A stretch of DNA of 23,563 nucleotides. It comes from a virus. Of the stretch, positions 3,696 through 23,245 are shown in pieces. Under the pieces are notes generated by a model. The model made no database searches and had not been told where the DNA came from. It worked only from the letters and a program-made list of their open reading frames with translations. How positions within the stretch are numbered: position 1 is the first letter of the stretch; each line of letters begins with the position of its first letter. Both the position numbers and the translations under genes were made by a program. The stretch is from positions 1 through 23,563 of IMG/VR virus record IMGVR_UViG_3300005915_000118. One strand, 5' to 3'.

Positions 3696-4876
3696 TTATT
3701 CTATTTTAGAACTAGATAAATCTTTTGTAGATCTATTTGTTTTCTTCTTTAACTGACTTGGATCTGCTGTTGCAGAAGCTCCAATAGAAGCTAAATCTTG
3801 TAACGACCCTCCAAATATATAAGTGCCAACGTGATTCATCTTCATCCATGGGCAGAACCAGACTTTACCACCTGCTTTTTGCACATCATAACAGAAAAGA
3901 TAATCCTCAGATAAATATCTTCTAGAATCTGGATCAATTGCAGCCTGGAAGAACATATGAATTTCTCTATCACCACTAAAGTGTTCTGTTCTAACATGAT
4001 CTGGTTTATAGCTTTTTTCTGGATAAGACTTCATATAATCTTCAAATGTTTTACGTCTGATCATCATGAAACCAGTTCCAATTTCTAAAACTTCTACTGG
4101 CTTATGAAGAGAAATCGAACCACTGCCCTGTTTTGGATTAAATACATAATCACCAACATACTTTTCAAGAACATTTGGGTCATCATCAGCAACACCACGA
4201 TCTACAGCAAGTTTAATTTTTTCCCACGAAATACACTTCTTCGGATATGGCCCACCAATTACATCATATTCTGATTCGTCAGTCTGAAGAGCTAAAAGAG
4301 CTAATACATCTTTTGGATCAAATCCAATGTCAGAATCGATAAACATAAGATGAGTCGCGCCAGATCTCATGAATTCATCACAACAATAATTTCTTGCACG
4401 AGTGACAAGAGATTCATTAAAAAGAAAATACATCTGTAATGGAATTTGATATTGGGCGCACATAGCAGAAAGATCTGCAATCGATCTAGCAAACATTCCT
4501 GCACAATTTCCCATTTATATTCGCATAGATTCGTAATATCTATACCGCTTTCGCTGCTTTATATTGCTATAAAGATTAGACTATATCTTCATCCCAATTT
4601 ATTGGGAGCTGGGCGCTTCGAAAACCATGTACTTGTTTTCTACTCCTTTCGGATAGTCGTTGAACCTTCCATTTTTCAATGGCTTGGCTGCTGATAATCC
4701 ACGCGGGACGTCCCAGCAATTCACCCAGTTATCATCTTTAAATTACTTTAAAGTGAGGCAGATTTACCATACATAGGAGTTGCAATGAACAATTTCTTTT
4801 TTCTTAATTCTTCAATTGGAACTTTTAATTGAAATCCTTGATTTGGTGCTTGTTCTTCTTTTTGTTCTTCACTCAT
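3696..4876 (-). CDS. GT-A-fold glycosyltransferase, split by a group I intron
   Basis: The gene is in two exons. Exon 1 (4876-4766, 37 codons) ends ...LFIATPMYG; exon 2 (4511-3696) continues GNCAGMFARSIADL. Joining them gives an in-frame 308-residue protein with an uninterrupted FIATPMYGG-type start, as in homologous phage glycosyltransferases as I remember them. Key features are FNESLVTRARN, the metal-binding DSD (FIDSDIGF, spliced residues 96-98) and a later SEDYLFCYDVQKAGG segment, typical of Anp1/GT2-like GT-A enzymes. Unspliced, exon 1 reads 4 codons into the intron and stops. The start has only a weak Shine-Dalgarno and overlaps the DUF3310 gene stop (ATGA). Next to a hydroxymethylase pathway it may glycosylate modified DNA, but a surface or virion target is equally possible. 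Confidence 0.88.
4512..4765 (-). ncRNA. Group IA self-splicing intron, 254 nt, no ORF
   Basis: All core elements are visible on the minus strand. The 5' splice site follows a U (TATGGT/AAATCT) with internal guide GCC; the intron ends in G (ATAAATG/GGAAAT). P2 is a 7-bp hairpin with a GUAA loop. P3 is CTGGGTG (4728-4722) with CGCCCAG (4615-4609). P4 is TTGCTG with CAGCAG. P6 has a GAAA loop. P7 is GACTA (4658-4654) with TAGTC (4583-4579) inside the S box AAGATATAGTC. Two extra hairpins (P7.1, P7.2) lie between P7 and P3, the hallmark of IA introns such as T4 td, nrdB and nrdD (sunY). P8 is CCCAAT/ATTGGG and P9 has a GCAA loop. No homing endonuclease is encoded. Confidence 0.93.
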
Positions 4877-9347: not shown

Positions 9348-9764
9348 TTAAAATGGTACTTCATTAACATTATATGATAAATCATCATCTGTTTCAATAT
9401 GTTCTCGATTTCCGATCATAACAACTTTACTTTTATTTGGCATAATTTTTCTAACTTCATCTGCCTGAATCGGATCATCTTCAAAATGATAAACGACACA
9501 AACACCAATCTCATATAAATGTTTAAGAGTTTTGGCTTTATGTTCTCCAGATGAAAGTCTACCATAGAGAACATCTGTTCTTGATAAAGGATTAAAGAAT
9601 ACAAAGTTATTTATACCTCTTCCTCGAAGCATACTGAGAGTTTCATCTTTTTGTTGATAAGATCTTCCGGTAACAATAATATCATCTGGGCCAGGTCTTA
9701 AACCTTCATGTTGAGCACCCATAAAAATAACTCCGTCTATATCATAACTATTTAATGTAATCAT
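9348..9764 (-). CDS. HAD-superfamily-like phosphatase/hydrolase
   Basis: 138 residues. Motif I DIDGV (D8, D10) starts the protein, VTGR gives the motif II Thr, HKAKTLKHL could supply the motif III Lys, and HFEDDPIQADEV the acidic motif IV. This is a minimal, capless HAD domain. Its ATG overlaps the stop of the myo-inositol-phosphate synthase gene, so the two are tightly coupled. Dephosphorylating inositol phosphate would be a natural partner reaction, but substrate specificity cannot be read from the sequence. Polynucleotide or nucleotide phosphatase activity is an alternative. Confidence 0.7.
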   Translation of the reverse strand: MITLNSYDIDGVIFMGAQHEGLRPGPDDIIVTGRSYQQKDETLSMLRGRGINNFVFFNPLSRTDVLYGRLSSGEHKAKTLKHLYEIGVCVVYHFEDDPIQADEVRKIMPNKSKVVMIGNREHIETDDDLSYNVNEVPF

Positions 9765-11041
9765 TATTCATAATCCGTTTGTGATGATTGAAAAGTATAA
9801 TCTAAATTATCAGCTTTTGGATTGTTTAAAACCAACTGTTTTTTAGTAAGACTAGTAAGTTCTCTTCTTGCTAAAGCATCACACTCAAATTTAGCATCTT
9901 CTGTCTTGAGTTGAAGAGGCGGGGTTTTCTGAGTCCAAGCTGAAGGACCTCTTAAGTATCCAACGACTCCAAGTTCAGAAGCCACCTTACAAAATCTAAT
10001 AGCAGATATTACAACTCCACCGGAATTTGGAGAATCTTGAACAGATAATCTAGCAGTCAATTCATATCTGGCCCCACCAAATCCATAAGCAATAATATCA
10101 AAATTGGCTATCTTATTATCAGTTCCAATATATTCTCCGCCAGGTTTTTGCATAACTGTTAATGATGGGCCTGCAAATAAAGTCATACCAGCAATAGATT
10201 CATCTCTTACAGAATTTTGACCCTTTAAAACATTTTCTTTTGAAATATGCTTATCATGAAGTCTATATTCTTTAGCCATATTAAGAAAATCGCAATTGGC
10301 TGTTCTACCAGTTCTTATTCCTTCTTGGCCCTGAGTTGAGCCAGAGGCCATATTAGTCTGAATATGTTGTGTAACCAACAGCCCAGAATCTAACATTGCT
10401 CCCTGAAGAACTTCTGATAATCTAGAAGCTCCCCAAGCCGATCTCATATCATTACCAACAATAGTTAATCCTTTGTCAATAAATTTTTGTTCAATTCTCT
10501 TTGTTGTCTTTGTATCAATAAGAGTTGGTATGCAATTTACAAAATGAACTCCAGCTTCTAAAGCTGCATCAACATAAAACTTAGTTGCCTTTTCAGATCC
10601 AACTGGAAGATAATTAACTAACACATCTACTTCATATTTTTTTAAAATATCTACAATATCATCATATGATTTTGCTGATTCAGCCCCAGTTCTAAAAGAA
10701 ACTGCTTCTGGATATTCCAACATATGTGGTGCAATTCCATCTAATTCTGGGCCAGAATAAACCATTGCATTTTTAGATACACAAGTATCATCAATAGTTT
10801 CAACATGATCCATTGCGCAATTTGGTTTTGCTCTAAGAGCTACAGATAGATGTCTGTTTACTTTTCGCCTATCAACATCGAATCCAACTACAAATTGAAG
10901 ATCATTAACAGTATAACCTCCAATGTCTGAATACATTAATCCAACTTTATCTTGTGGATTTTGTATATAGTATTGAACACCTTCTACTAGGGATTTAGCA
11001 CAGTTTCCTGCGCCAATAATTCCAACTTTAATTTTTGACAT
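9764..11041 (-). CDS. myo-Inositol-1-phosphate synthase homologue
   Basis: 425 residues, somewhat longer than bacterial MIPS (about 360-390). NAD-binding GIIGAGNCAKSLVEGVQYY at residues 8-26, then FVVGFDVDRRKV, YLPVGSEKATKFYVDAALEAGV, IVGNDMRSAWGAS and DFLNMAKEYRLHDKHISK, matching MIPS GxGNCxSSLVxGxxYY, PVGSExATxFYAxAAL, VGDDxKSQxGAT and DFxNMxxxxRLxxKxISK. The end TQKTPPLQ matches the conserved SxxxxKxPPxQ. The enzyme converts glucose-6-phosphate to inositol-3-phosphate. AAAGGAG lies directly upstream. In a phage, between dCMP deaminase and DNA-modification proteins, it may supply inositol for a DNA base adduct rather than for lipids. Confidence 0.88.
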   Translation of the reverse strand: MSKIKVGIIGAGNCAKSLVEGVQYYIQNPQDKVGLMYSDIGGYTVNDLQFVVGFDVDRRKVNRHLSVALRAKPNCAMDHVETIDDTCVSKNAMVYSGPELDGIAPHMLEYPEAVSFRTGAESAKSYDDIVDILKKYEVDVLVNYLPVGSEKATKFYVDAALEAGVHFVNCIPTLIDTKTTKRIEQKFIDKGLTIVGNDMRSAWGASRLSEVLQGAMLDSGLLVTQHIQTNMASGSTQGQEGIRTGRTANCDFLNMAKEYRLHDKHISKENVLKGQNSVRDESIAGMTLFAGPSLTVMQKPGGEYIGTDNKIANFDIIAYGFGGARYELTARLSVQDSPNSGGVVISAIRFCKVASELGVVGYLRGPSAWTQKTPPLQLKTEDAKFECDALARRELTSLTKKQLVLNNPKADNLDYTFQSSQTDYE

Positions 11042-16441: not shown

Positions 16442-16517
16442 TGGAAGCCACGCAGGGAATCGAACCCTAAGCATCGGGATTGAAAGCCCTAGCCAACCCT
16501 GTTGTTAAGACGCGGCC
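16442..16517 (-). tRNA. Divergent tRNA, possibly tRNA-Glu(UUC), with encoded CCA
   Basis: 76 bases on the minus strand. Acceptor GGCCGCG (16517-16511) pairs with CGTGGCT (16452-16446, two G-U pairs), followed by discriminator U and CCA. T arm TAGGG-TTCGATT-CCCTG is standard; the variable loop has 5 bases. The anticodon loop CTTTCAA would give UUC (Glu), but the anticodon stem TAGGG/TCCCG has an A-C mismatch and G-U pairs, and the D arm TTAA/TTGG is weak. If the loop is shifted by one base the anticodon reads UCA (UGA-decoding). Discriminator U is unusual for Glu. Its first 13 bases overlap the end of the upstream coding gene. It may be a real but unusual tRNA or a decaying one. Confidence 0.6.
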
Positions 16518-16882
16518 TTAACTTGTCGCCAACTTGAAATAGCATTGGCATCAGTATTATGATATTCATTACCGCCATATTTAGAAACCATATCGGCAAT
16601 TTTCTTATCGAGTCCATATTCCCATCCATGAGTTGATTGCTCAACCCTCAGATATGGCATTCCTTTTAAATAAGCCCTTGCTACATGAGTAGCTCTAGCT
16701 TCTTTTCGAACAACATTATCGCGATGGTTTTTAAGATTTTCAAACTGAGCAAAATGTTCATTATAATACTCATATCCAACACCAATTTTACGAAAATATT
16801 TCTTCTGCTTATTTTCTTCTTTTCTGATAATTTTTGTTTCTTCAGAAAGAGTTTTGAATTTAACTTTTAGTTCAATAGACAT
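16505..16882 (-). CDS. Hypothetical basic protein whose stop codon lies inside the tRNA
   Basis: 125 residues, strongly basic in the N-terminal half (KVKFKTLSEETKIIRKEENK, then KHRD/KEAR), with a C-terminal STHGWEYGLDKKIADMVSKYGG segment. AAAGGA precedes ATG 16882. The last codons AAG GCC GCG TCT TAA overlap the 5' acceptor strand of the tRNA, so RNase P maturation of the tRNA would remove the final Ala-Ser codons and stop. No family recognised. Confidence 0.7.
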   Translation of the reverse strand: MSIELKVKFKTLSEETKIIRKEENKQKKYFRKIGVGYEYYNEHFAQFENLKNHRDNVVRKEARATHVARAYLKGMPYLRVEQSTHGWEYGLDKKIADMVSKYGGNEYHNTDANAISSWRQVKAAS

Positions 16883-17240: not shown

Positions 17241-17365
17241 TATAAATTATCACTTCTAATTATATCTGATCGCCGCAAAGTCCACGTGCCAGAGATTATC
17301 TATCCGTTAAGACTTTATATGCTCATACTTTTTCTACTCTTGCATACCAAGCGTGATAATTTATA
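17241..17365 (-). ncRNA. Candidate structured RNA downstream of tmRNA
   Basis: A 13-bp perfect inverted repeat (TATAAATTATCAC at 17241-17253, GTGATAATTTATA at 17353-17365) closes about 100 bases. Inside are AAAGTC/GACTTT (17277-17282 with 17311-17316) and TATGC/GCATA (17318-17322 with 17342-17346), a possible multibranch fold. No reading frame of note crosses it. The 130 bases between it and the tmRNA (17366-17495) also lack a gene but contain short GAAA-capped hairpins (GACTGAAAGTC), so the RNA could extend upstream. I do not recognise RNase P, SRP, 6S or a riboswitch class. Confidence 0.45.
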
Positions 17366-17563
17366 TGGCTTTGGGTGGCTCACTTTCAGAACGACTTTCA
17401 GTCTTGCAAAACCTAATTATCTAACCATCTTCACAAAATTAGTGATATCCTATTATACTTGATCAAAATAAATTATTAGACGAACCCAAACTAAATTTAT
17501 TGGAGTATTCTGTTGCTAGGCTACTCCAGGCCCCAGTACTCTAGTTTCTAATCCACAAAGGGA

Positions 17564-17602
17564 TCAGGCAGCAAGAGCCAAAGGTGCAAAGTTATCGTTT
17601 GC
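17564..17602 (-). other. tmRNA tag reading frame (A)ANDNFAPLALAA
   Basis: Resume codon GCA at 17602-17600, then AAC GAT AAC TTT GCA CCT TTG GCT CTT GCT GCC and stop TGA: ANDNFAPLALAA, preceded in the product by the Ala carried on the tmRNA. The AND- start and LALAA end are the conserved ends of SsrA tags (E. coli AANDENYALAA); -LAA is the ClpXP recognition end. The AANDNF start resembles alphaproteobacterial tags such as that of Caulobacter. Confidence 0.9.
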
Positions 17603-17679
17603 GTTTAGTTTCTAGCCAGTCGGCCAACCAGTTAACTCCAGTTACTCATTACGCACCCAATCGATCCCAGTTCATCCCC

Positions 17680-17748
17680 ATCAAAAGAAGTGCGACCTTT
17701 GTGCACCAAGTCTTTTCAAACACCAATAGAATATTCTAGCACTTCTTT
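17680..17748 (-). other. Intervening segment of the permuted tmRNA precursor
   Basis: The 69 bases between the acceptor-piece CCA and the coding-piece GGGG. Its ends are complementary over 11 bp (AAAAGAAGTGC at 17683-17693 with GCACTTCTTTT at 17739-17749), extending the acceptor stem into a long hairpin. In bacterial two-piece tmRNAs this loop is removed by processing. Confidence 0.82.
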
Positions 17749-17816
17749 TGGTGGAGATGGGCGGATTCGAACCGCCGTGTTAAGTGTTTTTTGTTTCCTT
17801 CAACGTCAACATATTA

Positions 17817-17845
17817 TTTATATCACATTATTTGTTTGGTGTCAA
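17817..17845 (-). promoter_or_regulatory. Promoter of the tmRNA gene
   Basis: Minus strand: -35 TTGACA (17845-17840), 17-base spacer, -10 TATAAA (17822-17817). The -10 is also part of TATAAATA (17822-17815), the T4 late promoter consensus, so early host-type and late phage-type transcription are both possible. Predicted start about 17810. Confidence 0.72.
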
Positions 17846-18423: not shown

Positions 18424-19410
18424 TTATTTAAGGTCAATACTTTTTTCTTCAAATTGAGCTACAAAAGGTATAGTTTTAAGTTTTCCTTTTCTCATAACTT
18501 CAACCCAAAATACTTCATCTTTTTCTAACATAGAAAGATTAATCAATACATCAGTCATATTAAGTATTTTTCCGTTTGTAGCAGAAGAATATGATGATAT
18601 AATTCTAACTAATCTATCACCTTTTTCAAGTCCATATATACTAGCAGGACTTTCTGGCATGATATTAAGAACATATAAATCACCATCTTCTTTTTCTTTA
18701 AGAGAAATACCAAGCTTAAACCAGTATACTGAGTTAAATTTTGTAAGTTGTCTAATTACTTTTTGAACAAAATCTCCAGTTAAAGAAAAACCATATGATC
18801 CTCCAGGTCTAGCCAGCATTCTTGAATTCATACCAATCACACGCCCATTATAATCTAGTAATGGACCGCCAGAATTACCCTGATAAATTTTAGCATCTAC
18901 CTGAATAAAATACTGTGGTGTTTGATCAATTCGTCTATTTAAAGCAGATATAATTCCTCTAGATACAGAATATTCAAGACCCCATGGATGGCCAAAAGCC
19001 CAAATTCTTTGTCCTAATTTTAAATTTTCTGATGGAGAAAAAAATAGCTTTTTCCACTTTTCTTCATTTTTATATAAATTCCATTCATTAATAGCAACAA
19101 TAGCTATATCACTTGAAATATCGCTTGCAATAACCTTTGCTTTATATTTTTTATTTGATTTACTATTTTTAACATAAATAAAAGTAGCACCATTAACAAC
19201 ATGCTCATTTGTAATTATAACATTATTATCAATGAAAAATCCAGTTCCTAATCCTCTGGCTTCTTTATCTCCCACAGTTTTTGTGGAATATACTACAACA
19301 ACGCCATCAATAGTTTCTTCGACTATATTTTTAAGATTATCTGGTACAGAACAAGCAGAAATGCTTATGCTAATAAAAAATAGTACTAAATATTTGTATA
19401 TGTGTTTCAT
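18424..19410 (-). CDS. HtrA/DegP-like serine protease, predicted lipoprotein
   Basis: 328 residues from ATG 19410. The N-terminus MKHIYKYLVLFFISISISAC is a lipoprotein signal with lipobox ISAC (Cys20), so it should be anchored in the envelope. The trypsin-like triad is His70 (TNEHVV), Asp101 (SSDIAIV) and Ser180 (GNSGGP). A PDZ-like domain follows (about 225-310, PESPASIYGLEKGDRLVRI). Bacterial HtrA proteases act in periplasmic quality control; a phage copy could protect the host envelope during infection or process virion proteins. An in-frame ATG at 19440 overlaps the end of speD. No good Shine-Dalgarno precedes either ATG. Confidence 0.88.
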   Translation of the reverse strand: MKHIYKYLVLFFISISISACSVPDNLKNIVEETIDGVVVVYSTKTVGDKEARGLGTGFFIDNNVIITNEHVVNGATFIYVKNSKSNKKYKAKVIASDISSDIAIVAINEWNLYKNEEKWKKLFFSPSENLKLGQRIWAFGHPWGLEYSVSRGIISALNRRIDQTPQYFIQVDAKIYQGNSGGPLLDYNGRVIGMNSRMLARPGGSYGFSLTGDFVQKVIRQLTKFNSVYWFKLGISLKEKEDGDLYVLNIMPESPASIYGLEKGDRLVRIISSYSSATNGKILNMTDVLINLSMLEKDEVFWVEVMRKGKLKTIPFVAQFEEKSIDLK

Positions 19411-19415
19411 ACAAA

Positions 19416-19423
19416 TATTTATA
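19416..19423 (-). promoter_or_regulatory. Putative T4-type late promoter TATAAATA before the HtrA-like gene
   Basis: TATAAATA on the minus strand ends 5 bases before ATG 19410 and shares the 14-mer TATAAATATTTGTA with the site at 5241-5248. If used, the mRNA would have almost no leader. The AT-rich background makes single hits weak evidence. Confidence 0.35.
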
Positions 19424-19810
19424 TTATAGCTCACCTTCATCTAATACTTTTTGCAACCCATGCTCCCTATCTATGAATTTATATTCAATTTTTATAGGTG
19501 AAAAAATATGAAGATTTTCAAAAACAGTAGTAATATCTAGAGAACCGCATGTATATACATCTAATTGCATTATTCCAGGAGAAAACTCGTCCCAGACATG
19601 CATCGCAATATGAGAAGTTTCAATTATACAAACTCCAGTAAAGCCAGCATTTCCTTCAATATCAACATATCTAACATACGGTCCAGCCAAAAGTTTCATA
19701 TCAATCTCTTCAACAAGATTTCTAAACCACTCTTCCATCAAAACTAAATCTGTTTTCTTTGGCGGTGATTCTATTTCGGCTCTAACAAGAAGATGTTTGT
19801 GTTGCAGCAT
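19424..19810 (-). CDS. speD: S-adenosylmethionine decarboxylase
   Basis: 128 residues, the size of bacterial class 1B SpeD. The segment CIIETSHIAMHVWDE contains the Ser-His pair (Ser66, His67) where autocleavage generates the pyruvoyl cofactor; MQLDVYTCGS with Cys88 is the second conserved block. The enzyme decarboxylates SAM for spermidine synthesis. speD is a recurrent auxiliary metabolic gene in marine T4-like phages. Its end lies in front of the protease gene. Polyamines could neutralise phage DNA or feed a modification pathway; the former is the simpler idea. Confidence 0.92.
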   Translation of the reverse strand: MLQHKHLLVRAEIESPPKKTDLVLMEEWFRNLVEEIDMKLLAGPYVRYVDIEGNAGFTGVCIIETSHIAMHVWDEFSPGIMQLDVYTCGSLDITTVFENLHIFSPIKIEYKFIDREHGLQKVLDEGEL

Positions 19811-22867: not shown

Positions 22868-23245
22868 TTACTCCAGTGTTTCACCTGTTTCAACATATTC
22901 TTTTTCATCAACCCACTTACCATCTTTTTTAAATTCAACTTTAGCAAATTTCATTTGGCGCAAAGCTTCTTCTTCAGCTTCCTTTAATTGGCCAGTTCTT
23001 TTAGCAATTTCTAATTTATGCCAAGCTTTAAATACAGAAGTTTCTATACACTTTGTAAAAGCATCAACTTTATTCTGGTGTTGTGATCGTGTTGCATCAG
23101 AATATCCAGCAGCACCGGACTCTTTATGTGTGCAATATACAGCAGAAGAGGTTTTATTTCTCTTCTGCCCACCCTTTCCTGTTCCTCTGGTAAACTTAAA
23201 AATAAAATCTTTTTCGGTTACACTAAATAAAAGTTCTTTACTCAT
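22868..23245 (-). CDS. ArfB-like peptidyl-tRNA hydrolase (GGQ domain)
   Basis: 125 residues. FTRGTGKGGQKRNKTSSAVY puts the catalytic GGQ at residues 25-27, exactly where stand-alone ArfB/YaeJ has it, and HKESGAAGYSDATRSQHQNK follows the RF1-domain pattern HxxSGxxxxxxxxRSQxxNK. It lacks the codon-recognition domains of RF1/RF2. The usual ArfB tail is basic and enters the empty mRNA channel; here the end is acidic (KYVETGETLE), so binding to stalled ribosomes may differ. It should hydrolyse peptidyl-tRNA in the A site. Together with tmRNA the phage would own two rescue routes. Confidence 0.88.
   Translation of the reverse strand: MSKELLFSVTEKDFIFKFTRGTGKGGQKRNKTSSAVYCTHKESGAAGYSDATRSQHQNKVDAFTKCIETSVFKAWHKLEIAKRTGQLKEAEEEALRQMKFAKVEFKKDGKWVDEKEYVETGETLE

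Follow-up and report, generated by a model that had tools for sequence, protein, structure and literature searches.

A circularly permuted tmRNA gene on a contig of an aquatic T4-like phage raises the question of whether the phage uses the RNA and, if so, when and to what end. The window, by which we mean the whole stretch of DNA analysed here, comprises 23,563 nucleotides (positions 1 to 23,563 of the IMG/VR virus record IMGVR_UViG_3300005915_000118). Judged from its sequence, we consider it highly probable that the gene specifies a working phage-encoded two-piece tmRNA, used with host factors for ribosome rescue. We take the gene to be functional because its anatomy is intact, the RNA and its promoter are conserved, and the stem of its intervening segment appears to be kept by compensatory change.

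The window carries a complete two-piece tmRNA gene

The minus strand of the window holds an intact circularly permuted (two-piece) tmRNA gene at 17499–17810, with a promoter that begins at 17845. Using cmscan, the gene matched the permuted tmRNA model RF04321 (94.5 bits, E 1.9e-17, model positions 1–213 of 213) and the alphaproteobacterial tmRNA model RF01849 (88 bits, E 6.5e-23, model positions 1–355 of 355), above the gathering scores of 47 and 50, respectively, and over the full length of both models. ARAGORN called a permuted tmRNA with the tag ANDNFAPLALAA, the fold z-score of the RNA was −3.2, and the match is far above chance. An earlier sequence-only reading had proposed a complete alphaproteobacterial-type permuted tmRNA on a phage contig, with a search against the Rfam alphaproteobacterial model as the check; the covariance models and the ARAGORN call bear this out.

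The acceptor piece of the mature tmRNA (17749–17810) comprises the 5′ strand of helix 2, a tRNA-like T-arm (GGCGG-UUCGAAU-CCGCC, 17760–17777), the 3′ strand of the acceptor stem and the CCA end, finishing with CATCTCCACCA at 17749. The RF04321 match starts at 17810, which is exactly the predicted transcription start (G17810), 7 bases past the −10 box. Next comes a 69-nt intervening segment (17680–17748), predicted to be removed on maturation and closed by an 11-bp stem (AAAAGAAGUGC/GCACUUCUUUU) that stacks on the acceptor stem in the fold. The mRNA-like piece (17499–17679) opens with GGGGATGAACTGGGATCGA at G17679 and contains the 5′ strand of the acceptor stem, the 3′ strand of helix 2, the pseudoknot region, the tag frame and the 3′ domain; its 3′ end is approximate, the RF01849 match extending to 17499 and the ARAGORN call to 17473. 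The 7-bp acceptor stem (GGGGAUG/CAUCUCC) has an encoded CCA and includes the G3:U70 wobble, the alanine identity pair. The tag frame runs from the resume codon GCA at 17602 to the stop codon UGA ending at 17564, and the encoded ANDNFAPLALAA ends in -ALAA, in keeping with a hydrophobic C-terminal degron. In the RF01849 alignment, the upstream helix is partly missing or shortened, as is the extra hairpin of the alphaproteobacterial model. The sequence-only reading had described an acceptor half with a TTCGAAT T-loop and CCA preceding the 5′ half on the same strand, the 7-bp pairing, the 11-bp closing stem and a tag frame with a stop; all are present on the minus strand, and its coordinates and predicted piece ends (17749 and 17679) agree with this anatomy.

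The intervening segment is delimited by the fold and by end-pairing statistics from 98 permuted genes of phage and bacterial loci. The segments' own ends paired at a median of −10.9 kcal/mol, compared with −4.1 kcal/mol when partners were exchanged between genes, and −8 kcal/mol or better was reached by 80% of own ends against 13% of swapped ends. All 121 permuted genes have the G3:U70 pair.

The gene resides in a T4-like phage

The window encodes T4-type replication proteins, namely a clamp loader (phrog_168, E 9e-118), a sliding clamp (phrog_223) and a DNA-binding protein (phrog_624), and by this gene content it is a fragment of a T4-like phage related to the Kyanoviridae. Among named phages, its clamp loader is closest to those of Stenotrophomonas phage DLP_6 (61% identity), Melnitz (57%) and Mosig (54%); at the DNA level, no relative turned up in searches of named phages. 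The contig was assembled in several metagenomes, and one short contig (L218) has a clamp loader identical to that of the window. That host ssrA DNA was joined onto a phage contig during assembly is extremely improbable, given that phage genes flank the tmRNA and that the same tmRNA recurs in the same context in independent assemblies, a second contig (L037, 98.7% over 6.3 kb) and the 115.7-kb contig behind L152, which has identical RF-1 and clamp-loader proteins.

Several other features of the window were recorded (all on the minus strand). An HtrA/Deg-like serine protease with a PDZ domain (18424–19440) is transcribed toward the tmRNA; such proteins are rare among named phages (19 records, each with a coverage below 80%). 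An unknown 125-aa protein (16505–16882) has relatives within ∼1 kb of the tmRNA in the sister phage G011 (48%, L181) and in L080 (40%). A group I intron (RF00028, 83.8 bits) at 4557–4776 appears to interrupt a gene between ...LFIATPMYG and GNCAGMFARS...; the 3′ exon lies in the open reading frame at 3696–4514, which by eye resembles a glycosyltransferase and had no Pfam or NCBIfam match. An inositol-3-phosphate synthase-like protein is encoded at 9764–11041 (TIGR03450, 212 bits, below the cut-off).

The RNA is conserved in a sister phage

G011 is a sister phage of 161.9 kb in which the RNA, tag (ANDNFAPMALAA) and promoter hexamers are kept relative to the window. Identity was highest in the acceptor stem and CCA (11/11, 100%), followed by the tag region (37/39, 95%), the pseudoknot region (30/32, 94%) and the 5′ part of the acceptor piece (30/33, 91%); the 3′ domain was less conserved (47/67, 70%). 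The first four of these tmRNA regions are 91–100% identical while the RF-1 proteins of the two phages are only 55% identical, which argues that the RNA is under purifying selection. The intervening segment retained only 35 of 69 positions (51%), and its stem is formed by different sequences in the two phages (GAAGUGC/GCACUUC and GAGCACAU/AUGUGCUC), so that the stem is, on this comparison, maintained by compensatory change.

This conservation bears on whether the gene might be a non-functional relic of capture, left for example when excision from an attachment site in host ssrA was imprecise. Integration at bacterial ssrA is common (PMC11915505), yet we hold a relic to be highly improbable: the gene is complete, with a conserved promoter and a stem that has changed in a compensatory manner relative to G011, permuted genes are widespread in related phages, and an integrase was not seen among the window proteins scanned.

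The promoter suggests early or constitutive expression

The gene is preceded by a sigma70-type promoter, TTGACA-17-TATAAA, with the −35 box at 17840–17845 and TATAAA at 17822–17817. The −35 box is identical in G011, and the box spacing is common to many phage tmRNA genes. Between the window and G011 the hexamers agree at 11 of 12 positions while the spacer agrees at 5 of 17 (29%), which supports the earlier proposal that the gene has its own promoter. A consensus promoter scan skipped this TATAAA because it requires the −10 hexamer to end in T. A promoter with no more than one mismatch to the 12 consensus positions lay upstream of 32% of 103 permuted genes, compared with 0.6% of control stretches from the same loci, percentages that are not independent trials as the 103 genes are interrelated.

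The sequence-only reading had placed the use of the RNA late in infection, a timing that the promoter does not favour. In T4-like phages, a full −35/−10 sigma70 promoter is associated with early or constitutive transcription by the host polymerase, and because the promoter is of this type, expression of the window tmRNA looks early or constitutive. The −10 box does extend to TATAAATA, the T4 late motif (17815–17822), although this 8-mer occurs at chance frequency in the window (7 found, 6.4 expected); a late contribution to expression is possible and is not indicated. Early or constitutive expression was likewise proposed by the authors who described Melnitz (PMC9004378).

An alphaproteobacterial-type RNA with a possibly long phage history

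In a tree of 132 genes, the window tmRNA pairs with that of G011 (support 0.997) within an alphaproteobacterial-type group (support 0.958) of 68 leaves. The 25 bacterial members of this group form a clade of their own (0.98); all come from one sampled alphaproteobacterial order, and SAR11 was not sampled by name. Genomes of this order (0.7–1.8 Mb) have mostly ANDNFAPV-type tags. The tag ANDNFAP[L/M]ALAA is common to phage contigs, some of which share the window's ANDNFAPLALAA. The exact tag context, sought genome-wide with a pattern that required the window's own AAAC prefix, gave no match. The mRNA-like domain and tag are, by these comparisons, alphaproteobacterial in type, so this part of the earlier reading stands, but acquisition from the present host does not follow, as the window tmRNA is closest to those of other phages. 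A lineage long established in phages is therefore at least as likely as recent capture from the present host.

The T-arm departs from this pattern. The alphaproteobacterial-type T-loop (GGCNGUA) is absent from the window tmRNA, which has UUCGAAU instead, whereas a GGCAGUA-type loop is present in G011, Melnitz and most alphaproteobacterial-type genes. The T-arm is only 44% identical to that of G011 (8/18), compared with 88–100% in the adjoining tRNA-like parts, and the difference is confined to the arm. The 29-mer from the T-arm to CCA (17749–17777) has exact matches in three bacterial genomes, where it belongs to tRNA-Ala(UGC) genes, and also in one ordinary tmRNA. We considered the exact bacterial T-arm matches as donor tmRNAs and rejected them, since they are mostly tRNA-Ala. 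A reasonable guess is that the arm was replaced locally, inside the tmRNA, through conversion by a tRNA-Ala gene; a cyanobacterial-type tmRNA is a possible donor.

Comparison with known tmRNAs

Phage-borne two-piece tmRNAs are already known, especially in many aquatic phages: 53 of 133 published distinct phage tmRNA genes are two-piece, nearly all from aquatic phages and with Melnitz and Mosig among the carriers (PMC9004378). Among the matches listed, at least 69 of at least 87 tmRNA genes on matched loci were permuted, a count that includes duplicates as well as the window and was obtained with a pattern chosen for such T-arms. All loci examined together yielded 114 distinct permuted genes, many of them with an almost identical tag, and three of 13 contigs chosen solely for a related clamp loader carried one.

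Melnitz (MZ577097; PMC9004378), a T4-like Kyanoviridae phage of Methylophilales, resembles the window in having a permuted alphaproteobacterial-type ssrA without SmpB, a TTGACA-17-TATAAATA promoter and a clamp loader 57% identical to that of the window. Its tag is ANDNYVPVDYALAA, and it differs in its alphaproteobacterial-type rather than tRNA-type T-loop and in a glutamine riboswitch just downstream of the tmRNA; none was found in the window. A structured RNA or glutamine riboswitch at 17245–17440 was considered and rejected, the interval having no Rfam match, a fold z-score of 0.09 and matches in the same phage only. The related Pelagibacter phage Mosig (MT647606) also has a permuted alphaproteobacterial-type ssrA, but with the tag GEDNFALAA and a weaker RF01849 match (67.6 bits). 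Alphaproteobacterial ssrA itself (RF01849; Caulobacter) shares with the window the order of acceptor piece, intervening segment and mRNA piece, the ANDNFAP.. tag family and G3:U70, whereas the window has no GGCGGUA-type T-loop, lacks part of the upstream helix and scores 88 bits against 212–261 for bacterial genes of one alphaproteobacterial order.

Two further observations concern other phages. Stenotrophomonas phage DLP_6 carries a permuted tmRNA that is not annotated (L130, KU682439.2 102838–103059, 136.8 bits) and has the tag ANDDSFAPMAIAA. Two contigs of 172 and 242 kb (L185 and L186) have a permuted tmRNA (81 bits) with an acceptor end other than CCA and a called tag, DTTNNWIATGSYDFSNEDVLA, that is without the usual ending; the call may be wrong or the tag unusual.

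Rescue, targeting and inhibition

The window also encodes a 125-aa stand-alone RF-1/GGQ-domain protein (22868–23245, minus strand; PF00472, 53.6 bits), which is without an ArfB-like basic tail and scores far below the curated ArfB and PrfH cut-offs. Among named phages, 193 of the 197 records with a relative of this protein are Mycobacterium phages, and all four mycobacteriophages sampled from these have a tmRNA. The mycobacteriophages of clusters C, V and M (Bxz1, Wildcat and Rey types) encode both, but are unrelated phages of actinobacterial hosts and their tmRNA is one-piece. A tmRNA gene was found in 8 of the 16 viral contigs that have an RF-1 relative and are at least 50 kb long (one being a tRNA-like domain only), compared with 3 of 13 related, shorter contigs. 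This co-occurrence is suggestive of a joint role in rescue, and we keep it as a lead, rather than claim an enrichment, because the samples are small and related. It is conceivable, if rather unlikely, that the two form a two-part rescue kit, an SmpB-dependent tmRNA and a stand-alone GGQ peptidyl-tRNA hydrolase without the ArfB tail, with separate origins in T4-like aquatic phages and mycobacteriophages; stalled ribosomes beyond the reach of tmRNA would then also be freed during infection.

A different emphasis, put forward for Melnitz (PMC9004378), would make protein targeting the main role, with the phage tag marking truncated host (or phage) proteins for degradation and amino-acid reuse early in infection. 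The early-type promoter fits this proposal, as does the L or M of the phage tags (ANDNFAP[L/M]ALAA) where one alphaproteobacterial order has mostly ANDNFAPV..., but this is a conservative change, and a tagging tmRNA always rescues too, so that the present evidence does not separate the two roles. We regard targeting as the main role as possible, though on balance doubtful. A third role is inhibition of the host tmRNA by titrating SmpB, as proposed for a tRNA-like-domain-only molecule of mycobacteriophage DS6A (PMC4131195), the source that documents phage tmRNA-like inhibitors. A gene resembling the DS6A inhibitor type is found on another phage contig with an RF-1 protein (L188, 1529–1609, minus strand), as an 81-nt tmRNA tRNA-like domain without a tag frame, within a tRNA array. 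In the window tmRNA the tag frame, stop and mRNA-like domain are all complete, with 94–95% conservation around the tag, which makes an inhibitor very unlikely here.

A model for ribosome rescue

Two-piece tmRNAs are matured by RNase P and tRNA 3′ processing, charged with alanine and delivered by SmpB and EF-Tu, and lead to tagging and ribosome release. From this established pathway we infer the processing, charging and tagging of the window tmRNA in its favoured role, ribosome rescue; its timing and benefit are likewise inferred. Host RNA polymerase would use the sigma70-type promoter and start near G17810, and in the folded precursor the intervening segment would form a long helix stacked on the acceptor stem. 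Cleavage by RNase P before G17679 and tRNA 3′ processing to CCA at 17749 would yield two RNAs that stay joined through the acceptor stem and helix 2, and host AlaRS could charge this complex via G3:U70. SmpB was found in none of 25 phage records that carry a tmRNA or are related, G010 and G011 among them, so host SmpB is presumed to be used; with EF-Tu, it would bring the tmRNA to ribosomes that have stalled on mRNAs that are broken or have no stop codon. Translation would resume at GCA 17602, add ANDNFAPLALAA and stop at UGA, releasing the ribosome, and the tagged fragment would pass to ClpXP-type proteases. The likely benefit is ribosome recycling while host and phage mRNAs are cut during infection.

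The window thus adds a well-preserved example to the phage-borne two-piece tmRNAs. That selection appears to have kept promoter, tag and processing hairpin alike in phages argues that trans-translation is used and not merely carried, and the window and G011 pair, together with the co-encoded GGQ protein, makes a phage's gain from ribosome rescue directly testable.
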